Shown: positions 24,041 to 54,556 of the stretch, piece by piece
Layout: each line of letters opens with the position of its first letter
Position numbering within the stretch: position 1 is the first letter of the stretch
Source of the DNA: Blastopirellula sp. J2-11
Lineage (GTDB): Bacteria; Planctomycetota; Planctomycetia; Pirellulales; Pirellulaceae
Direction of reading: 5' to 3'
Length of the DNA stretch: 64,000 bases
Assembly: GCF_024584705.1 (NCBI RefSeq)
Contig: NZ_CP097384.1
Span: 3,844,001 to 3,908,000 of the forward strand
The notes under the pieces: generated by a model
What the model saw: only the letters and a program-made list of their open reading frames with translations
The model's database searches: none
What the model was told of the DNA's origin: nothing
Translations under genes and position numbers: made by a program

Positions 24041-24649
24041 TCAAGAACAGGCGGCCTCGACCGCTTTATAAACGGTGCGAGAAATCCGGAAACCCAGTCG
24101 TTCGTACAGACGTATCGCCCCTTCGTTTTGGGCGGTGACTTCCAAGAAGGCATGCTGCAGACCGTAGTCGTAAAAACCTTGCAGCGCCTTGAGCAGCAAG
24201 CGTCCGCCCAACCCGCTGCCGCGATGCTCGGGAACGACTCCCAGATTTTGGATCGAACCGTGCCCAGATCGGTCGGCGACCCCTTGGACCGTCCCAACCG
24301 GCAGCATCATTCCGGTCGTTTCCTCTTTGTATTCGGCCAACCAGGTCGCACCGGGGATGAACCCTTCGCGGTGTGAGATCTCGGTCATCAACCGCCGACA
24401 GCCTTCGGCGTCTCCTAGACAAGGAAAGACGTTTGCGTCGATTTCCCAGCGAAAACTCTCAAATTTGCTCGCCGCGTGGGCGTCGATCAGCTCAGGCCGC
24501 CAGGAAACGAAACGATAGGCTGGGGGAAGCAAGATCGGCTGGGCGGGAACCTCCGCCAGATCGATCTCCATGCGGTAACGTTTGAAGTAAGTCAGTGTCA
24601 CCGGGTCTACCACGTCCGTCGTAACGTAGCGTCGAATTTGAGGATTCAT
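24041..24649 (-). CDS. GNAT-family N-acetyltransferase
   Basis: 202 residues. The acetyl-CoA site is clear: NLGVVPEHRGSGLGGRLLLKAL (motif A, R/Q-x-x-G-x-G/A), followed by LEVTAQNEGAIRLYERLGF (motif B with the Tyr acid). The N-terminal half is a less conserved substrate domain. Ends in AACS. Start ATG 24649. The acceptor molecule is unknown; it could be a protein N-terminus or a small amine. It is divergent from the metal ABC operon. Confidence 0.9.
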   Translation of the reverse strand: MNPQIRRYVTTDVVDPVTLTYFKRYRMEIDLAEVPAQPILLPPAYRFVSWRPELIDAHAASKFESFRWEIDANVFPCLGDAEGCRRLMTEISHREGFIPGATWLAEYKEETTGMMLPVGTVQGVADRSGHGSIQNLGVVPEHRGSGLGGRLLLKALQGFYDYGLQHAFLEVTAQNEGAIRLYERLGFRISRTVYKAVEAACS

Positions 24650-24808: not shown

Positions 24809-24863
24809 TTGACGCCGCTACGGGGCGACTCCTATACTTTTTGATGAGCCAAAAAATTTTTTG
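24809..24863 (+). promoter_or_regulatory. Predicted sigma-70 promoter and palindromic operator of the metal ABC operon
   Basis: TTGACG (24809-24814) and TATACT (24833-24838) are separated by 18 bp, which predicts transcription start near 24845. Directly at the start lies caaaaaattttttg (24850-24863), a 14-bp perfect palindrome. An AT-rich dyad just downstream of the start site is where a DtxR-type repressor would block transcription, and the operon itself encodes such a domain. The repressor assignment is inference. Confidence 0.5.
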
Positions 24864-24876
24864 CGTGAGTCGAAAA

Positions 24877-25770
24877 ATGCGAGCTTTTTCTACCTCTACA
24901 GCGATCCTACTAGCATTAACCTCGTCTTCAATCGCTTTAGCGGATGATCCGAAGCCGCTGATTGTATGCTCCACGACCCAGGTCGCTGATTTTGCCCGAC
25001 AGGTGGTCGGGGATCAGATGGAAGTTCGGTCGATCCTCGCCGCCGGCCAAGACCCGCACGTCTATGAGATTAAACCCAACGACGCCGCTCTGGTTTCGCG
25101 TTCGGCTCTCTGTTTTGACAACGGCTGGCATCTGGAAGGCGCCGACTGGATGCGCAAACTGGCCGAAAACGCCAACAAACCGATCACGAGTTGCGCGAAC
25201 GGCGCCACGCCGCTGGAGATCAATAACGGCACAGCGCACGATCCGCATGCCTGGTTCTCGCCGGCCAACGCCGCCGTTTATGTGCGTAACATTCGTGATG
25301 CGGTCAGCCAATATGATCCGGCGCATCGCGACCAATATCACGCTCGGGCTCAACTCTATTTGGATGAGTTGCGTACGCTAGATGGTTGGGTTCGAAAGCA
25401 GATGAATGCAATACCAGTTGAAAAACGAATCTTGGTCACCAGTCACGATGCGTTCAACTATTTCTGTCGCGAATACCATTTCACCGCGGCGACGCCGGTT
25501 GGCTGGTCGACTGGATCGGAAGTGGGCGGAGGAGTGACGCCTGAGCGACGACGGGAAACGGTCGAGTCGATTCGCAGCTTCGGAGTCCGCTCAATCTTTG
25601 TCGAAACGTCGGTCAGCCCGGTGATGATTCGCCAAATCGCCGATGAGGCAGGCGTCGTCGTCGGCGGCACGCTCTATTCCGATTCAATGGGACCTCCCGG
25701 TTCGGCCGGCGAAACCTACATCGGCATGATGCGCGAAAACGTGTTGACGATTGCGGCAGGGTTAAAATAA
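24877..25770 (+). CDS. Metal ABC transporter substrate-binding protein (ZnuA/TroA/MntC family)
   Basis: About 297 residues from ATG 24877, chosen because it starts a signal peptide (AFSTSTAILLALTSSSIALA) and lies downstream of the promoter; the frame is open further back. Cluster A-I metal ligands are visible as His in QDPHVYEIKP, His in AHDPHAWFSP, His/Glu-region VTSHDAFNYFCREY and the acidic ligand in LYSDSMG. There is no His-rich loop of zinc ZnuA proteins, which leans toward Mn or Fe. It delivers metal to the permease encoded downstream. Confidence 0.9.
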   Translation: MRAFSTSTAILLALTSSSIALADDPKPLIVCSTTQVADFARQVVGDQMEVRSILAAGQDPHVYEIKPNDAALVSRSALCFDNGWHLEGADWMRKLAENANKPITSCANGATPLEINNGTAHDPHAWFSPANAAVYVRNIRDAVSQYDPAHRDQYHARAQLYLDELRTLDGWVRKQMNAIPVEKRILVTSHDAFNYFCREYHFTAATPVGWSTGSEVGGGVTPERRRETVESIRSFGVRSIFVETSVSPVMIRQIADEAGVVVGGTLYSDSMGPPGSAGETYIGMMRENVLTIAAGLK

Positions 25771-25776
25771 TCGGTC

Positions 25777-26280
25777 ATGCGTATTCTCTTTGCGATCACC
25801 GCCGCGGCTCTGGCGCTCTTGTTGGTGAAAGTTTATCTCACCGTCGATGAGCATCGCGCCGCCGCTGCGCCCCAAGCCGAAGTTTTGGAAAACGCCGCCG
25901 GCGAATTTCGCCTAGAGCTGGAACTTTCGTTTGACGCGGGTCCCGATCGTTTTTCGGCCGACCTCAACAATTCCAACGCCGTCAGCGTTCGCTTTGCCGG
26001 CAAGGCGCTTTATGCAACCGACCAACCGATCGCCGCCGGTGAAAACATCGAAATTGCCGACATCGACAACATCGTCGTCGGGCGAAACGAATTTCTGATC
26101 GAAGCGACTCCACAAAACCCTGGCCCCCCGCTCTTCGCGAAGGTCGCGATCTATTCAAGCCAACAACACGAGCCGATCGCCGAACGTTTTCTATGGGCGC
26201 CGGCCGGAGCTGCGATCCTGTCTGGCGTCGCTAATTTCTCCACCACGGCCGACCATCCGGCCGACGGAGGGACTCCATGA
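25777..26280 (+). CDS. Unknown membrane-anchored protein in metal transport operon
   Basis: 167 residues, ATG 25777, 6 bp after the binding-protein stop and overlapping the ATPase start by 4 bp (ATGA). One N-terminal hydrophobic segment (ILFAITAAALALLLVKVYL) anchors a predicted beta-rich extracytoplasmic domain (FRLELELSFDAGPDRFSADL, VSVRFAGKALYAT). A conserved-looking NEFLIEATP segment follows. No family recognised. Its place inside the operon implies a role with the transporter, perhaps as a docking or accessory factor; that is inference only. Confidence 0.7.
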   Translation: MRILFAITAAALALLLVKVYLTVDEHRAAAAPQAEVLENAAGEFRLELELSFDAGPDRFSADLNNSNAVSVRFAGKALYATDQPIAAGENIEIADIDNIVVGRNEFLIEATPQNPGPPLFAKVAIYSSQQHEPIAERFLWAPAGAAILSGVANFSTTADHPADGGTP

Positions 26281-27062
26281 TCGCCCGACCGACACGTTCT
26301 GGAGTTCCGGCCGTTCAGGTCGACCACCTGACAGTGAGCTATGGCCCGACGCCGGCGCTGCTCGATATTTCGTTTCAGATCGAAGCGGGACAGTTAGTCG
26401 GAGTGATCGGTCCCAATGGCTCTGGCAAGTCGACACTGATCAAAGCGATTCTCGGCTTTATGAAACCCGACTTGGGCGAGGTTCGCTTGTTTGGCGCGCC
26501 GACCGAAAAAGCCCGGCGGCGCGTCGCCTATGTTCCGCAGCGCGGCGCGGTCGACTGGGATTTCCCGGTCACTGTCGAGCAGGTCGTCATGATGGGACGC
26601 TATGGACAAATCCCCTTTTGGGCCTGGGGACCGTCGCACGAAGATCGTCAGCATGTCGACGACGCGTTGGTAACCGTTCGCATGGAAAAATTCCGCCGCC
26701 GACAGATCGGGCAACTCTCAGGCGGACAACAGCAGCGGGTCTTTATGGCGCGAGCGCTCGCCCAAGGCGCCGATATTCTGCTGCTCGACGAACCATTCGC
26801 CGGCGTCGACGCCGCGACTGAACGCGCGTTACTGGAAGTGCTGGACAGCACCAAGCAGGCAGGACGAACGCTGATCGTCGTTCATCACGATCTCGCGACC
26901 GCCGCCGAATATTTTGATTCGCTGCTGTTGATTAAGCAGCGTCTGTTCGCATTCGGCTCGCCGCAGCAAGTCTTGCAGCCAGAGTTGTTGTCTGAAGTCT
27001 ACGAAGGATCGCTGAAAGCGTTTGAGCATTTGCGCGACGTCTCGACAGGAGGTGGAAAATGA
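26277..27062 (+). CDS. Metal ABC transporter ATP-binding protein
   Basis: 261 residues. Walker A GPNGSGKST, Q-loop YVPQRGAVDWDFPVTVEQVV, signature LSGGQQQRV, Walker B DILLLDEPFAGVD and the H-loop HHDL are all intact. The wording of the Q-loop region is typical of Mn/Zn/Fe importers (MntB/ZnuC/YtgB). Both ends overlap neighbours by 4 bp, showing tight translational coupling. Confidence 0.95.
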   Translation: MIARPTRSGVPAVQVDHLTVSYGPTPALLDISFQIEAGQLVGVIGPNGSGKSTLIKAILGFMKPDLGEVRLFGAPTEKARRRVAYVPQRGAVDWDFPVTVEQVVMMGRYGQIPFWAWGPSHEDRQHVDDALVTVRMEKFRRRQIGQLSGGQQQRVFMARALAQGADILLLDEPFAGVDAATERALLEVLDSTKQAGRTLIVVHHDLATAAEYFDSLLLIKQRLFAFGSPQQVLQPELLSEVYEGSLKAFEHLRDVSTGGGK

Positions 27063-28600
27063 ACTTCCTCTATGACGTGTTTGTCGAACCGCTCGCTTCC
27101 GGCGGATATCTGTTTCGCGCGATGTTCGCCGGCTCACTCGTCGCAATCGCTTCGTCGATGATCGGCTGCTTTATCGTACTGCGTCGCATGGCCTTTTTGG
27201 GGGACGCGATCTCCCACTCGATGCTGGCCGGCGTCGTCGGCGGCTATTTGCTAATGAAATTGATCGCCGGAGAGGAAGCCCATTTTGGGGCGATGATCAT
27301 TGGCGCGTTGTTGGCCGGCTTTGTGACGGTGCTGTTGATCGGCTTTGTCTCACGCGCTTCGCGCATCAAAGACGATACGGCGATCGGCATTATGTACACC
27401 GGCATTTTCGCCTTTGGCGGCGCGATGGCGAGCGTCTTCTCCAGCGAGATCCATGTCGACTTGATGCACATGGTGATGGGGGACGTCTTGGTTGTCGACG
27501 CCGAGCGACTTTGGATGATGGGCGCCGTCACCGCAATCATCCTGTTTGTCGTGATCTTGTTCTATCGCCAACTGCAATTAACCAGTTTCGATCCGATTAT
27601 GGCCGCGTCGGTTGGCGTTTCGGCGCCGCTGGTCGGATACTTATTGACCGCCTGCACGTCGCTGGTCGTCGTGTCGGCCGTTTCCATCGTCGGCATCATT
27701 CAAGTGGTCGGGCTCCTGATTACGCCGGCTGCCGCCGCTTATTTGCTCTGCAATCGCTTGTCGAGCATGCTGGTCCTCTCGGCGGCGCTCGGCGTCAGCA
27801 GCGTAGTGCTGGGCGTTTACGCTTCAGCCTGGCTCAATATCGGCGCCGGCTCGTCGATCGTGATGGCAGGCACCCTGCAATTTATGGTGATCTTGATTCT
27901 CGCGCCGCACAACGGTCTGTTAGCCGGCACGCTGCGGCGCTGGAACCAGGTTCCTCAACATGTCGTCGAAGACGTCCTTGGTTGCTTGCGGCGCGACGAG
28001 ACGCACGCGACGCGATTAGAAACCATTCGAGCCCATGTGCAAGCGACGCCGGCTACGTTACGTCGCGTGCTGCAGCGAATGGTGGCGATGTCGCTGCTGG
28101 ACCAGACGCCGCAAGGTTTTATTCTGACCGAGTTCGGAAATCATGAAGCGCGACGTTTGATGCGCGCGCATCGGATTTGGGAAACCTATCTGCAGCGGGT
28201 TGGCATGCCGGAAGATTCGCTGCACGATCGCGCTCACCTGTTGGAGCACCTGAACGACGAGGCGACCGTCGACTATCTGGATGATCGACTGGGACATCCG
28301 ACTCGCGATCCGCACGGGCAAGAGATTCCTGAAGACTTTATCGACCTAATCCCCGGCGCAGAAGTCAAAGCGAGTCTATTGCGTGACGGGCGCCGCGGCG
28401 TCATTACGGCGATCGCCGGCAGTCACAAACATGACCAAGTCGCGATCGGCGATGTGATCATCGCTGGCCCGCGTGAAATGGAGGACACCATTTGGACCTT
28501 CCGTTTGCCCAGCGGGGTAGAGTTGCATCTTGATCATGATTCGGCCGATCAACTAACCGTGCGGCTAGCTGATCCAAACAGCGAACGACAAGAGAATTAG
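27059..28600 (+). CDS. Metal ABC permease fused to a DtxR-family repressor (YtgCR-like)
   Basis: 513 residues. Residues 1-290 are an ABC-3 family permease with about eight or nine helices (LRRMAFLGDAISHSMLAGVV, VVGLLITPAAAAYLL, LQFMVILILAP). Residues about 300-365 are a winged helix (ETIRAHVQATPATLRRVLQR, TPQGFILTEFG). Residues 366-425 are the metal/dimer domain with DtxR ligands in register: His371, Glu375, His389, His393 (Cys in DtxR), Glu396, His397, and GHPTRDPHGQEIP. The end looks like an SH3/FeoA-type domain. Chlamydial YtgCR has the same permease-repressor layout, and there the repressor part is released by cleavage. No second permease gene follows, so it may act as a homodimer. Confidence 0.93.
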   Translation: MNFLYDVFVEPLASGGYLFRAMFAGSLVAIASSMIGCFIVLRRMAFLGDAISHSMLAGVVGGYLLMKLIAGEEAHFGAMIIGALLAGFVTVLLIGFVSRASRIKDDTAIGIMYTGIFAFGGAMASVFSSEIHVDLMHMVMGDVLVVDAERLWMMGAVTAIILFVVILFYRQLQLTSFDPIMAASVGVSAPLVGYLLTACTSLVVVSAVSIVGIIQVVGLLITPAAAAYLLCNRLSSMLVLSAALGVSSVVLGVYASAWLNIGAGSSIVMAGTLQFMVILILAPHNGLLAGTLRRWNQVPQHVVEDVLGCLRRDETHATRLETIRAHVQATPATLRRVLQRMVAMSLLDQTPQGFILTEFGNHEARRLMRAHRIWETYLQRVGMPEDSLHDRAHLLEHLNDEATVDYLDDRLGHPTRDPHGQEIPEDFIDLIPGAEVKASLLRDGRRGVITAIAGSHKHDQVAIGDVIIAGPREMEDTIWTFRLPSGVELHLDHDSADQLTVRLADPNSERQEN

Positions 28601-49161: not shown

Positions 49162-50946
49162 TTACCAAAACCGCCACCAACTTTTGTCGCCTGATTTCTC
49201 ACTGGCGGCAATTTCTTCCGACTCAGCGGCTTCCGCATCCTCTGTAACCGCTTCTTCTTCCAACATTTCGTCATCCGCATAGTCGGAATCGCTATCTTCC
49301 TCACGTTCCAGAAAATAGACCCGATCGTTATGAGCCAGCGAATCGGCCTCTACCCGAGCGTCGATGGCGCCTTGCTGCTTCAAGCTGTAGATAACCTTCA
49401 TCACTTCGGGATAATCGCCGTCGGCGTCGACAATCCCTTTGATCAGTTCGGTGACCGTCGGCTCGCAGACAAACGAGCGATTCTCGCGACCGGCGACAAC
49501 GCGGGTCACCTTGACCTTGCCGTCGGTCGTGCCGGTGATGGTCAACCCCTTGGGCATCAGCAAAATCGCGTCCGTCCGGACCGGGATATTGTCGCCAAAG
49601 ACGACCACTTCGGGGCGTTCGCTCAAGCGAAAGTGAACCAGCGGTGACGCTTTGGAGCGGATCGGGTGGAAGATAAACTTCCCTTTCATGTCGACGCCGC
49701 GAATGATCGGCGCTTTGCCGGTTTTCTCTAGCAGCGTGTCGAACGCACCGTAGCGAGCTTCGGCGCTTTCGCAGTGAAGCAAGCCTTCTAATTCGTCGAT
49801 CACCGTCAAATCGTCAAGCGTCCCGAAAGCGATATAGGCGCGATGGCGAAATTCGCTTTGACTGCGCGCCGCTTCGGTCAGCGTGGGGATCGCCGCGGGA
49901 TCATCCAAGTAAGCCAGCGCTTCGGCCGCGCAGAAGCGGACCAGCGGACTTTTCGATGCAAGCCCCTTCTTCAACGAATCGAGCGAATCCTTGCCTAGCG
50001 CTTCCAACTTCATCGCTCCGGCTTCTGAGGATTCGGGAATCATCAACTCGGCTTCGGCGTTTTGGATGCGTTGCAAGCGTTCTTCGGTCGTGTCGCCGAT
50101 CGGAATATAGCGAACGACACGCAGGAAACGGGGGACATTTTCAAAGTATTTGGGATGAACGCGGAGTTCGATCTTTTTGTCGTCTAACGGATTGGCGACC
50201 CCGGTCTTGCCGCCTCCGTTTTGATAGCTGAAGAAACGGGAGTTGATCGACTGCCCGACCCGAGCACTGGCCTGAACCGACACATTGTCAGCACGCATCG
50301 CTAGTCCGATCGGACGATCTTTCTTGAGGATGCCGCCACCGAGGATCACGCCCCGTTTGAGTAGAATCTCGGAATCGTCTCGGCCTTCGCGGATATTGTC
50401 GGTCAAAATGGCGCCGTGGCCGCGAACGAACGTCTCCCCCTTCCGCAAACGACCTTCTAAAACGGCCGATTCGGACAACGAGGTTTCCAGCATCCAGCCA
50501 TCGACCAGGCTGGTCGTCTCAGAATCACGCGAAGTCAGCACGCGAATATCGACACGCTGACCAACGCGAGCGCCCGGCTCGATATACGCTTCGGCGACCA
50601 CCAGCGAAGTTCGCGGCGACGCAAGTTCGGTGTTGGGCTTGGCGATCTTGCGAATCCGCATCTCATTCAGCAGCGCCTCTTGCAGGGGAGACGGCGGCGG
50701 ATCGCTGCCGGTGTTGTCGAGGCCGGTCACCATCGACACGCCTTGAATCTTGGCTACCTGCAGTCCGACAGGGACGGTTAGATCACCCACCACGCGCGAG
50801 AGTTCCCACTCGGCGGGCGATTCGTCCACAATGGCCACATCCTCTTCGTGAAACCACGAAACGCACCCCGGCGAAACGAGCAAACCGCCGGCAAGCAGTA
50901 AGATCGTGAGTGGTCGAGAACGAGATTGTAATGCCCGAATAGTCAT
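49162..50946 (-). CDS. FlgI-like P-ring lipoprotein with inserted HEAT repeats
   Basis: 594 residues. Signal with lipobox LLVSPGC. Residues about 45-270 match the flagellar P-ring fold (VTGLDNTGSDPPPSPLQEAL, SLVVAEAYIEPGARVGQRVD, KRGVILGGGILKKDRPIGL). Residues about 310-400 are HEAT-like repeats (SPLVRFCAAEALAYLDDPAAIPTL, HRAYIAFGTLDDLTVIDEL). The FlgI end resumes around 480-535 (VTELIKGIVDADGDYPEVMKVIYSLKQQGAI). The C-terminus is very acidic and ends SWWRFW. Flagellar FlgI is shorter, soluble and lacks HEAT. No flagellar genes are near. Confidence 0.85.
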   Translation of the reverse strand: MTIRALQSRSRPLTILLLAGGLLVSPGCVSWFHEEDVAIVDESPAEWELSRVVGDLTVPVGLQVAKIQGVSMVTGLDNTGSDPPPSPLQEALLNEMRIRKIAKPNTELASPRTSLVVAEAYIEPGARVGQRVDIRVLTSRDSETTSLVDGWMLETSLSESAVLEGRLRKGETFVRGHGAILTDNIREGRDDSEILLKRGVILGGGILKKDRPIGLAMRADNVSVQASARVGQSINSRFFSYQNGGGKTGVANPLDDKKIELRVHPKYFENVPRFLRVVRYIPIGDTTEERLQRIQNAEAELMIPESSEAGAMKLEALGKDSLDSLKKGLASKSPLVRFCAAEALAYLDDPAAIPTLTEAARSQSEFRHRAYIAFGTLDDLTVIDELEGLLHCESAEARYGAFDTLLEKTGKAPIIRGVDMKGKFIFHPIRSKASPLVHFRLSERPEVVVFGDNIPVRTDAILLMPKGLTITGTTDGKVKVTRVVAGRENRSFVCEPTVTELIKGIVDADGDYPEVMKVIYSLKQQGAIDARVEADSLAHNDRVYFLEREEDSDSDYADDEMLEEEAVTEDAEAAESEEIAASEKSGDKSWWRFW

Positions 50947-53893: not shown

Positions 53894-54556
53894 CTACGTC
53901 AGGGCCGAGACCAACAGCTTTTCGGCGGCGTCTAACCCCAACGTCGTCTGACGGCCTTCGACTTCGATCGTCAGAACTCCGGCTTCGGCTCGAAATGCAA
54001 TGATTTTGCCTTCGCAGCCGGGCGCGAGCGATTCTTCGGTTAAATATCGCAAAAAATCAGACGTTTGATCCATCACTCGGATCAAACGAAACGGCTGGGC
54101 CGCGTCCCATTTGGTCAATTTTTTTGAGTCGACGCTCACCATACTGCCGTCGGCTCGAGGAATTGGATCGCCATGGGGGTCGGTGTCGGGATACCCCAAA
54201 AAATCGTCGATCCGATCGACCAGCAGGTCACTGACCGCATGCTCCATGTGCTCAGCCTCTTCGTGGACTTCGTCCCAGGTCAGATCGAGCGTGCGGACCA
54301 GAAAGAGTTCGATCAGACGGTGTCGACGCAGCACGCGCAGCGCCAACGTGCGGCCGGACGGCGTTAGGCTCACCCCTTCGTACTTCATGTACTCCGCAAG
54401 TCCCGCTTCGCTCAAAGTTTTGAGCATGCTTGTGACCGTGCCTGGCGAAACGGAGAGCGCTGTCGCTAGTTCTCCGGTCGACGCGGCGTCTTTGTCAGCA
54501 CGGGCGCAGACCTGGTAGATCGCTTTTACGTAATTCTCTATCGTCAGATTGTGCAC
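53894..54556 (-). CDS. DtxR/MntR-family metal-dependent regulator
   Basis: 220 residues. Start GTG with AAGGAG 7 bp upstream. Winged helix (STGELATALSVSPGTVTSML, KYEGVSLTPSGRTLALRVL), metal/dimer domain with ligands His79, Glu83, His98, Glu102, Glu105, His106, and a C-terminal FeoA-like SH3 domain. Glu at 102 replaces the DtxR/IdeR Cys and matches MntR Glu99, so Mn2+ sensing is possible. However, Asn8 and Lys11 sit where MntR has two acidic ligands. It is divergent from mch. Confidence 0.93.
   Translation of the reverse strand: MHNLTIENYVKAIYQVCARADKDAASTGELATALSVSPGTVTSMLKTLSEAGLAEYMKYEGVSLTPSGRTLALRVLRRHRLIELFLVRTLDLTWDEVHEEAEHMEHAVSDLLVDRIDDFLGYPDTDPHGDPIPRADGSMVSVDSKKLTKWDAAQPFRLIRVMDQTSDFLRYLTEESLAPGCEGKIIAFRAEAGVLTIEVEGRQTTLGLDAAEKLLVSALT

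Follow-up and report, generated by a model that had tools for sequence, protein, structure and literature searches.

The 64,000-nucleotide stretch of Blastopirellula sp. J2-11 DNA analyzed here (NZ_CP097384.1, positions 3,844,001 to 3,908,000; hereafter the window) encodes a protein in which an ABC-3 transporter permease continues directly into a DtxR-type metalloregulator, which we call the tail. The interpretation that we place at the head, at just short of an even chance, is that this tail serves as a metal-sensing feedback valve on a metal importer and that a separate repressor handles the genes. Judging from the conservation patterns described below, the tail is probably not mainly the repressor of its own operon. 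Its retained metal ligands, its dimerization domain, a connector of fixed length and the doubling of tails in related transporters fit, by analogy with MetNI and ModABC, a trans-inhibition device. The architecture, the conservation pattern, the shared operator and the permease tree were all computed here.

The 513-codon frame begins with ATG and contains no internal stops. Pfam models score over their cut-offs at residues 17-281 (ABC-3, PF00950, E 4e-56) and 357-425 (Fe_dep_repr_C, PF02742, E 2e-21), and the nearest solved sequences to the fusion are DtxR-family regulators (5zr4, E 1.2e-14). A first-pass annotation of this DNA had described a permease joined to a complete DtxR part with a complete winged helix. 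The permease and the metal-binding/dimerization domain stand on these matches, and the winged helix is complete by length and pattern, but the DtxR DNA-binding model PF01325 has no match in the window fusion at E up to 1; nine other fusions likewise gave no match at E up to 0.1, making none of the ten scanned. All six DtxR ligands that the annotation had listed (His371, Glu375, His389, His393, Glu396 and His397) are found at those positions. Structure predictions were too poor for use, with a mean predicted local distance difference test score of 49 for the tail (aligned with the window's standalone DtxR) and 42 for the whole fusion alone.

Fusions of this kind, designated type A, are approximately 500-520 amino acids long, are encoded by a single permease gene and occur in 19 of 60 genomes, this one included. 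The matches in the 18 other genomes are 46-96% identical to the window protein and have no internal stops. The annotation had allowed that a sequencing error might have merged two genes; matches to the whole type in 18 further genomes exclude such an error, and the fusion is genuine. The copy in G050 is divided between two contigs. Of the six type A fusions scanned with PF04023, one matches weakly (L018, E 0.0028, below cut-off), and standalone DtxR is over the cut-off of the same model.

A second kind, type B, consists of tandem permeases of approximately 430-490 amino acids in other planctomycetes and in Verrucomicrobiota. Of 40 tandem pairs, 28 (23/31 planctomycete, 5/9 verrucomicrobial) match the tail profile in both members, 11 in one and one in neither; several of the frames end at the edge of the locus. 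Among the eight planctomycete pairs with one tail match, six second members have the winged helix only and two first members have a divergent tail. In six loci (L226, L229, L230, L231, L238 and L239), the second permease has a winged helix but lacks the metal domain, and the first permease beside it is tailed; it is possible that two functions are split between such partners. In Chlamydiota, a tailed YtgC stands beside an untailed permease in 34 loci.

The conservation of the tail was examined in 24 type A tails, 37 tails of first and 33 of second tandem permeases and 35 chlamydial tails, after removal of loci that duplicated others (L149, L151-L154, L156 and L157) and, from the tail alignment, of L257; the rows include close relatives, so the counts are not independent. 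In type A, His371, Glu375 and His397 are present in 24/24 tails and His389, Glu396 and Asp305 in 23/24. Position 393 is His in 19 tails, Glu in three and Asp in two, and among first tandem permeases Asp replaces His389 in 28 of 37. Asp305, at the end of the connector, occupies what we take to be the place of MntR Asp8. Between the permease end and helix 1 lie 22 residues in all 129 fused tails, a count that depends on the aligner, with conserved residues anchoring both ends. Also present in 129/129 fused tails is Trp374, which adjoins the ligand Glu375. It is found in none of 15 standalone DtxR proteins, in none of 29 in a further set (33 distinct proteins altogether) and, by eye, in none of 18 MntR-like proteins.

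Within type A tails, conservation peaks in the dimerization stretch at residues 402-428 (identity 0.73). Identity in the metal helix is 0.50-0.62 in the fused classes versus 0.78 in standalone proteins. Between the window fusion and three congeners, the metal domain is 99, 92 and 93% identical, with ratios of nonsynonymous to synonymous substitution (dN/dS) of 0.012 and 0.028; the third comparison gave no computable value. Trp374 also occurs in all five proteins of a third kind that has a DtxR domain (L247, L248, L252, L418 and L419), whose frames encode 324-364 amino acids with Trp at the place of residue 374. The two that were scanned with Pfam, L247 and L252, show FeoA (PF04023) in two stretches, and L247 and L248 have one apparent membrane helix at their start. 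This third kind may apply the same principle of tethering to iron transport (Feo).

The part of the tail that would read DNA is conserved quite differently. Mean pairwise identity of the recognition helix (residues 328-344) is 0.24 in type A, 0.25 in first and 0.21 in second tandem permeases and 0.20 in Chlamydiota, as opposed to 0.72 among 15 standalone DtxR proteins. Standalone proteins almost always follow the pattern PG[TSA]V[TS]SM in this helix. The same holds at short range: relative to three congeners, residues 326-345 of the fusion are 90, 65 and 55% identical, versus 100, 95 and 100% for the standalone protein of the same genomes. Four of the 35 chlamydial tails (L142, L144, L168 and L182) have a winged-helix stretch shortened by at least 11 residues (43-52 residues versus a median of 63) and retain the metal domain; DNA binding by these four seems doubtful.

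The annotation had singled out positions 24809-24863 for footprinting. Inspection of this region revealed a promoter and, overlapping its -10 box, a near-palindromic operator (Table 1). In four congeners, TTGACG-18-TATACT is followed by TTTTTGATnnnnCAAAAA, which is a perfect palindrome in two. The motif TTTTTGA-N4-TCAAAAA is present with at most one mismatch in 21 of 56 upstream regions (12/20 type A, 9/36 others) and with at most two in 29 of 56; in a control with 41 permuted half-sites, the mean was 0.02 regions at one mismatch (at most one) and 1.24 at two. Counted among the 36 others are three regions that do not represent a tailed transporter of their own (G025, G012 and a repeat of G034) and additional regions from G009, G017 and G037; none of these extras has the operator at two mismatches or fewer. 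Eighteen of the 21 regions place the site 1.9-2.7 kb ahead of the permease, and it is further off in G005, G040 and G215; in the regions inspected it is located at the binding-protein promoter. The same motif precedes both fusion types in other genera, and a view of the operator as peculiar to type A was abandoned. At 16 of the 21 operator-bearing regions, the recognition helices of the tails differ widely, at residues 332 and 333.

Apart from the site at the operon, the longer pattern CTTTTTGATNNNTCAAAAAG has no site with one mismatch or fewer in four congeneric genomes, and the shorter pattern has at least two further sites each in G000 and G002 at one mismatch. Hits of the longer pattern at up to three mismatches are about as numerous as those of a reversed control, so only few-mismatch sites at the operon were read. 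A candidate site at 50218 was dropped, as it lies inside coding sequence. The matches listed also include perfect copies upstream of a PF13557 gene (L323 1501-2708 and L333 523-1518), in two genomes that belong to different families. The encoded protein is presumably of the outer-membrane barrel type, and the gene is likely a second member of a metal regulon.

Two DtxR-domain proteins are found in the window genome, the fusion and a standalone protein of 220 amino acids. Among 48 genomes with a transporter, 36 have a standalone DtxR and 12 do not; counting MntR-like proteins as well, 43 have a separate regulator and five have neither. In G045 and G030, an MntR-like regulator is encoded near the tandem-permease operon (L413 and L414), and the longer standalone DtxR was not found there. 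The operator, at two mismatches or fewer, is present in 26 of the 36 genomes with a standalone DtxR versus one of the 12 without (Fisher 1.4e-4), an association that we regard as suggestive, because about five changes only are involved. This count omits G012 and G025, whose region has no tailed transporter, and G300 and G215, which are outside the 60 relatives; it keeps G033 and G038, although PF02742 finds no transporter tail in them, and without these two it becomes 26/34 versus 1/12 (Fisher 5.4e-5).

These features can be assembled into a mechanism. The gene product would be the membrane subunit of a divalent-metal importer. In its genome (one contig, 6.43 Mb), no ABC-3 permease besides the fusion was found, so two copies of it presumably form a homodimer that brings two tails to the importer; each tail would act as a DtxR-type metal sensor. 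When cytoplasmic metal is high, a site formed by Asp305 of helix 1 together with His393, Glu396 and His397 of the dimer domain would fill, and the metal-filled tails would dimerize beneath the importer. The resulting pull on helix 1 would reach the last membrane helix by way of the connector, whose length is fixed, and slow transport as a form of feedback trans-inhibition. A separate protein, most likely the standalone DtxR, would act at the operator to repress transcription of the operon. The likeliest metal for the importer, on sequence grounds, is Mn2+ or Fe2+. The nearest solved sequences to its substrate-binding protein are metal/Mn binding proteins, and it aligns with Mn-binding SitA, with two His, one Glu and one Asp at what we take to be the SitA ligand places. 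The metal's identity, the geometry of the dimer, the inhibition of transport and the choice of operator-binding protein are what we infer.

Several observations weigh against the valve, and some of them are what would be anticipated if the metal-loaded tail, cleaved or tethered, instead bound the operator and shut its own operon. In Chlamydia trachomatis, three papers describe YtgR as a demonstrated DNA-binding repressor that is released by cleavage (PMC5599777, PMC7755916, PMC6504234), which provides a precedent for such an autorepressor. The winged helix retains its length in type A, and its codons are under purifying selection (dN/dS 0.07-0.14; recognition helix 0.10-0.19). The recognition helix carries a mean net charge of +2.7 in the fusion versus +0.1 in the standalone protein, and position 336 holds a basic side chain in most type A tails (20/24) and first tails (23/37), such that a common basic patch could still read DNA. 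Within the genus, the recognition helix and the right half-site of the operator split alike, a pattern compatible with coevolution. In addition, six planctomycete partner permeases retain a winged helix without a metal domain. The proposed division of labor with the standalone protein faces its own difficulties: the few standalone changes behind the operator link, placed on the ATPase tree, give a sign test p of 0.5 or more, and 10 of the 36 genomes with a standalone DtxR, G033 and G038 among them, show no operator. G005 has a perfect operator and a tail, and no standalone DtxR was found in it; a role for the tail as a repressor is possible above all in such genomes. Finally, the recovery of the operon site alone by the longer pattern is what would be expected of an autoregulator with a single target.

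Opposing an autorepressor are the single operator found before both kinds of operon, A and B, despite the wide differences among the recognition helices of their tails, the failure of PF01325 on the ten fusions, a 22-residue connector whose fixed length is unlike that of a free, cleavable linker, and the standalone DtxR with a conserved helix in 36 of the 48 transporter genomes. The cleaved or tethered autorepressor that the first-pass annotation had envisaged is therefore weakened by an unconserved helix, by one operator for both types and by a separate DtxR or MntR-like protein in 43 of 48 genomes. It is not the best fit in planctomycetes, and we judge it unlikely. Another explanation is heterodimerization: the tail would pair with the standalone protein and hold it at the membrane, so that the state of the importer feeds transcription. 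MalK acts on MalT in a comparable way. The strong conservation of the dimerization stretch in type A and the joint presence of transporter and standalone in 36 of 48 genomes (two of them, G033 and G038, without a PF02742 transporter match) are in keeping with such sequestration, but 12 of 48 genomes have no standalone partner and Trp374 sets the two kinds of domain apart, and we consider it improbable. The poorest prospect, to which we attach very little credence, is that the tail is a relic that merely stabilizes the permease and has no regulatory role. The winged helix and C-terminal domain do evolve fast, and some second permeases of a pair are untailed; however, apart from position 393, which varies among His, Glu and Asp, each ligand is retained in at least 23 of the 24 type A tails, and the dN/dS of the metal domain is very low in both of the comparisons given above.

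The annotation had presented the fusion as a planctomycete counterpart of chlamydial YtgCR. A permease-DtxR fusion is indeed present in sampled planctomycete, verrucomicrobial and chlamydial genomes, but the permease half of the window protein does not belong to the YtgC lineage. In a careful permease tree of 80 rows, YtgC falls with first members of tandem pairs (100/99) and YtgD with second members (100/99), whereas type A forms a clade (100/100) that joins untailed single permeases (97/85). By its permease half the window fusion is thus not a YtgCR ortholog; as read from its sequence, it has the design of YtgCR on a different permease lineage, and it is the first tandem permease that corresponds more closely to YtgC in planctomycetes. 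The careful tree leaves out 20 rows of a quick 100-row tree (long branches, near-copies and some untailed rows), and H_L021, U_L190, U_L191 and D_L155 are relabelled in it. On the quick tree, a forced clade of type A with the YtgC permease was borderline (approximately unbiased test, p 0.051), and a grouping of type A with the second-permease branch was rejected (p 3.7e-6). The grouping of first permeases with YtgC gave p 0.035 on that tree, probably because the first-permease row H_L021 was labelled otherwise and left out of the set. The tail half, with 131 columns, is too short for its tree to decide ancestry: the same test rejects none of four groupings, including type A with YtgR and type A with the standalone proteins, and the quick search missed better trees.

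The likeness to YtgCR extends to the order of domains, with the winged helix and metal/dimer domain of DtxR type placed after an ABC-3 permease, to the ligand pattern, and to the 22-residue connector and Trp374, both present in 35/35 chlamydial tails. The two differ in that an untailed permease follows YtgC, whereas the window genome has a single permease gene and no YtgD-type partner was found in it. Residue 305 is Asn or His in 34 of 35 chlamydial tails and Asp in the window type, and the third domain (window residues 429-513) is missing from the chlamydial frames (413-474 amino acids), judged by length. A further DtxR-type hit over cut-off, such as the standalone protein of the window genome, is present in just three of 50 sampled Chlamydiota genomes. 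The domain occurs in a YtgCR-sized frame in 48 of the 50, and 45 of these 48 have no other DtxR-type protein over cut-off. The chlamydial tail is thus nearly always the sole DtxR-type protein found, which matches its shown role as a repressor.

Relative to DtxR/MntR repressors, the window's standalone protein among them, the tail has the same metal/dimer domain, ligands and likely third domain; it differs in being fused to a permease, in its unconserved recognition helix, in Trp374 and in having His at 393 (19/24), where the 15 standalone proteins have Glu. Type B pairs share with type A the DtxR-type tail on an ABC-3 permease, the connector, Trp374 and, in planctomycetes, the same operator, but they have two permease genes, shorter tails and, in first permeases, the Asp substitution at 389 noted above. 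With respect to the proposed valve, MetN carries its regulatory domain, of another fold, on the ATPase. ModC, too, has a domain of another fold on the ATPase; in both MetNI and ModABC, imported substrate binds a pair of C-terminal domains and slows the importer, according to a review of transporter control (PMC10710835), in which DtxR is unmentioned. Here a metalloregulator fold would instead sit on the permease. Permease-repressor fusions have already been reported in 11 phyla, as stated in another review (PMC5599777). A literature search, with most subscription papers outside its reach, returned no paper joining transinhibition with DtxR and none joining DtxR, permease, fusion and planctomycete. 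The valve role, the pairing of tails and the shared operator appear to be new; the fusions themselves are known.

The fusion is the last of four genes in an operon that also encodes the binding protein, a small protein and an ATPase, in that order. In 20 other type A loci, the ATPase precedes the fusion in 18 and the binding protein does so in 17, the fusion standing alone in two. The small protein has no Pfam match at E up to 1 and shows an apparent N-terminal membrane segment; counterparts occupy the same place in 12 of the 20 loci. A similar opposite-strand gene of the presumed GNAT type accompanies 18 of the 56 upstream regions (11 type A, 7 type B) at a distance of 0.2-2.9 kb, and this common neighbor suggests that the transporter has been exchanged at one chromosomal place.

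Table 1. Features of the fusion gene, its operon and the proposed regulator (window coordinates)
Feature	Position	Strand	Basis
Divergent gene, presumed GNAT type, sharing the intergenic region	24041..24649	-	Open reading frame
Promoter: TTGACG (24809-24814), 18 bases, TATACT (24833-24838)	24809..24838	+	Sequence; both boxes identical in three congeners
Near-palindromic operator TTTTTGATGAGCCAAAAA, overlapping the -10 box	24838..24855	.	Perfect copy in the same place in two congeners
ZnuA-family substrate-binding protein (ATG taken; GTG at 24865 possible)	24877..25770	+	PF01297, E 5.5e-78
167-amino-acid protein between binding protein and ATPase	25777..26280	+	Open reading frame
ABC ATPase	26277..27062	+	PF00005, E 1.1e-32; 4-base overlap with fusion start
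Permease-DtxR fusion, 513 amino acids	27059..28600	+	Open reading frame, Pfam, matches in other genomes
ABC-3 permease half, residues 1-285	27059..27913	+	PF00950
22-residue connector, residues 283-304, from permease end to tail helix 1	27905..27970	+	129/129 fused tails
Winged-helix part of tail, residues 304-358; Asp305 in helix 1, recognition helix ~328-344	27968..28132	+	Alignment
Metal-binding/dimerization domain, residues 357-428; six ligands and tail-specific Trp374	28127..28342	+	PF02742, column counts
C-terminal domain, residues 429-513, where DtxR has its SH3/FeoA-like third domain	28343..28597	+	Position, inference
Standalone DtxR-family protein, 220 amino acids, proposed operator reader	53894..54556	-	PF02742 113 bits, PF01325 51 bits

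The YtgCR literature considered here does not explain why a membrane permease should have a repressor built into it. The placement of YtgC and YtgD in a lineage of often doubly tailed pairs, taken together with the shared operator and the standalone protein, turns this into a testable question about a valve. We tentatively propose, at appreciably less than even confidence, that in planctomycetes and Verrucomicrobiota a repressor fold became an importer valve, with a dimer of two tails on the importer scaffold, and that in Chlamydiota a single tail serves as a released repressor, with both layers of control in one protein. It can then be asked whether the chlamydial use as a repressor was kept or was re-gained where other DtxR proteins are missing. 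If the valve is real, a well-known transcription-factor fold would double as a transporter control module, and metal control would comprise two layers, valve and repressor, in one lineage and one protein in the other.

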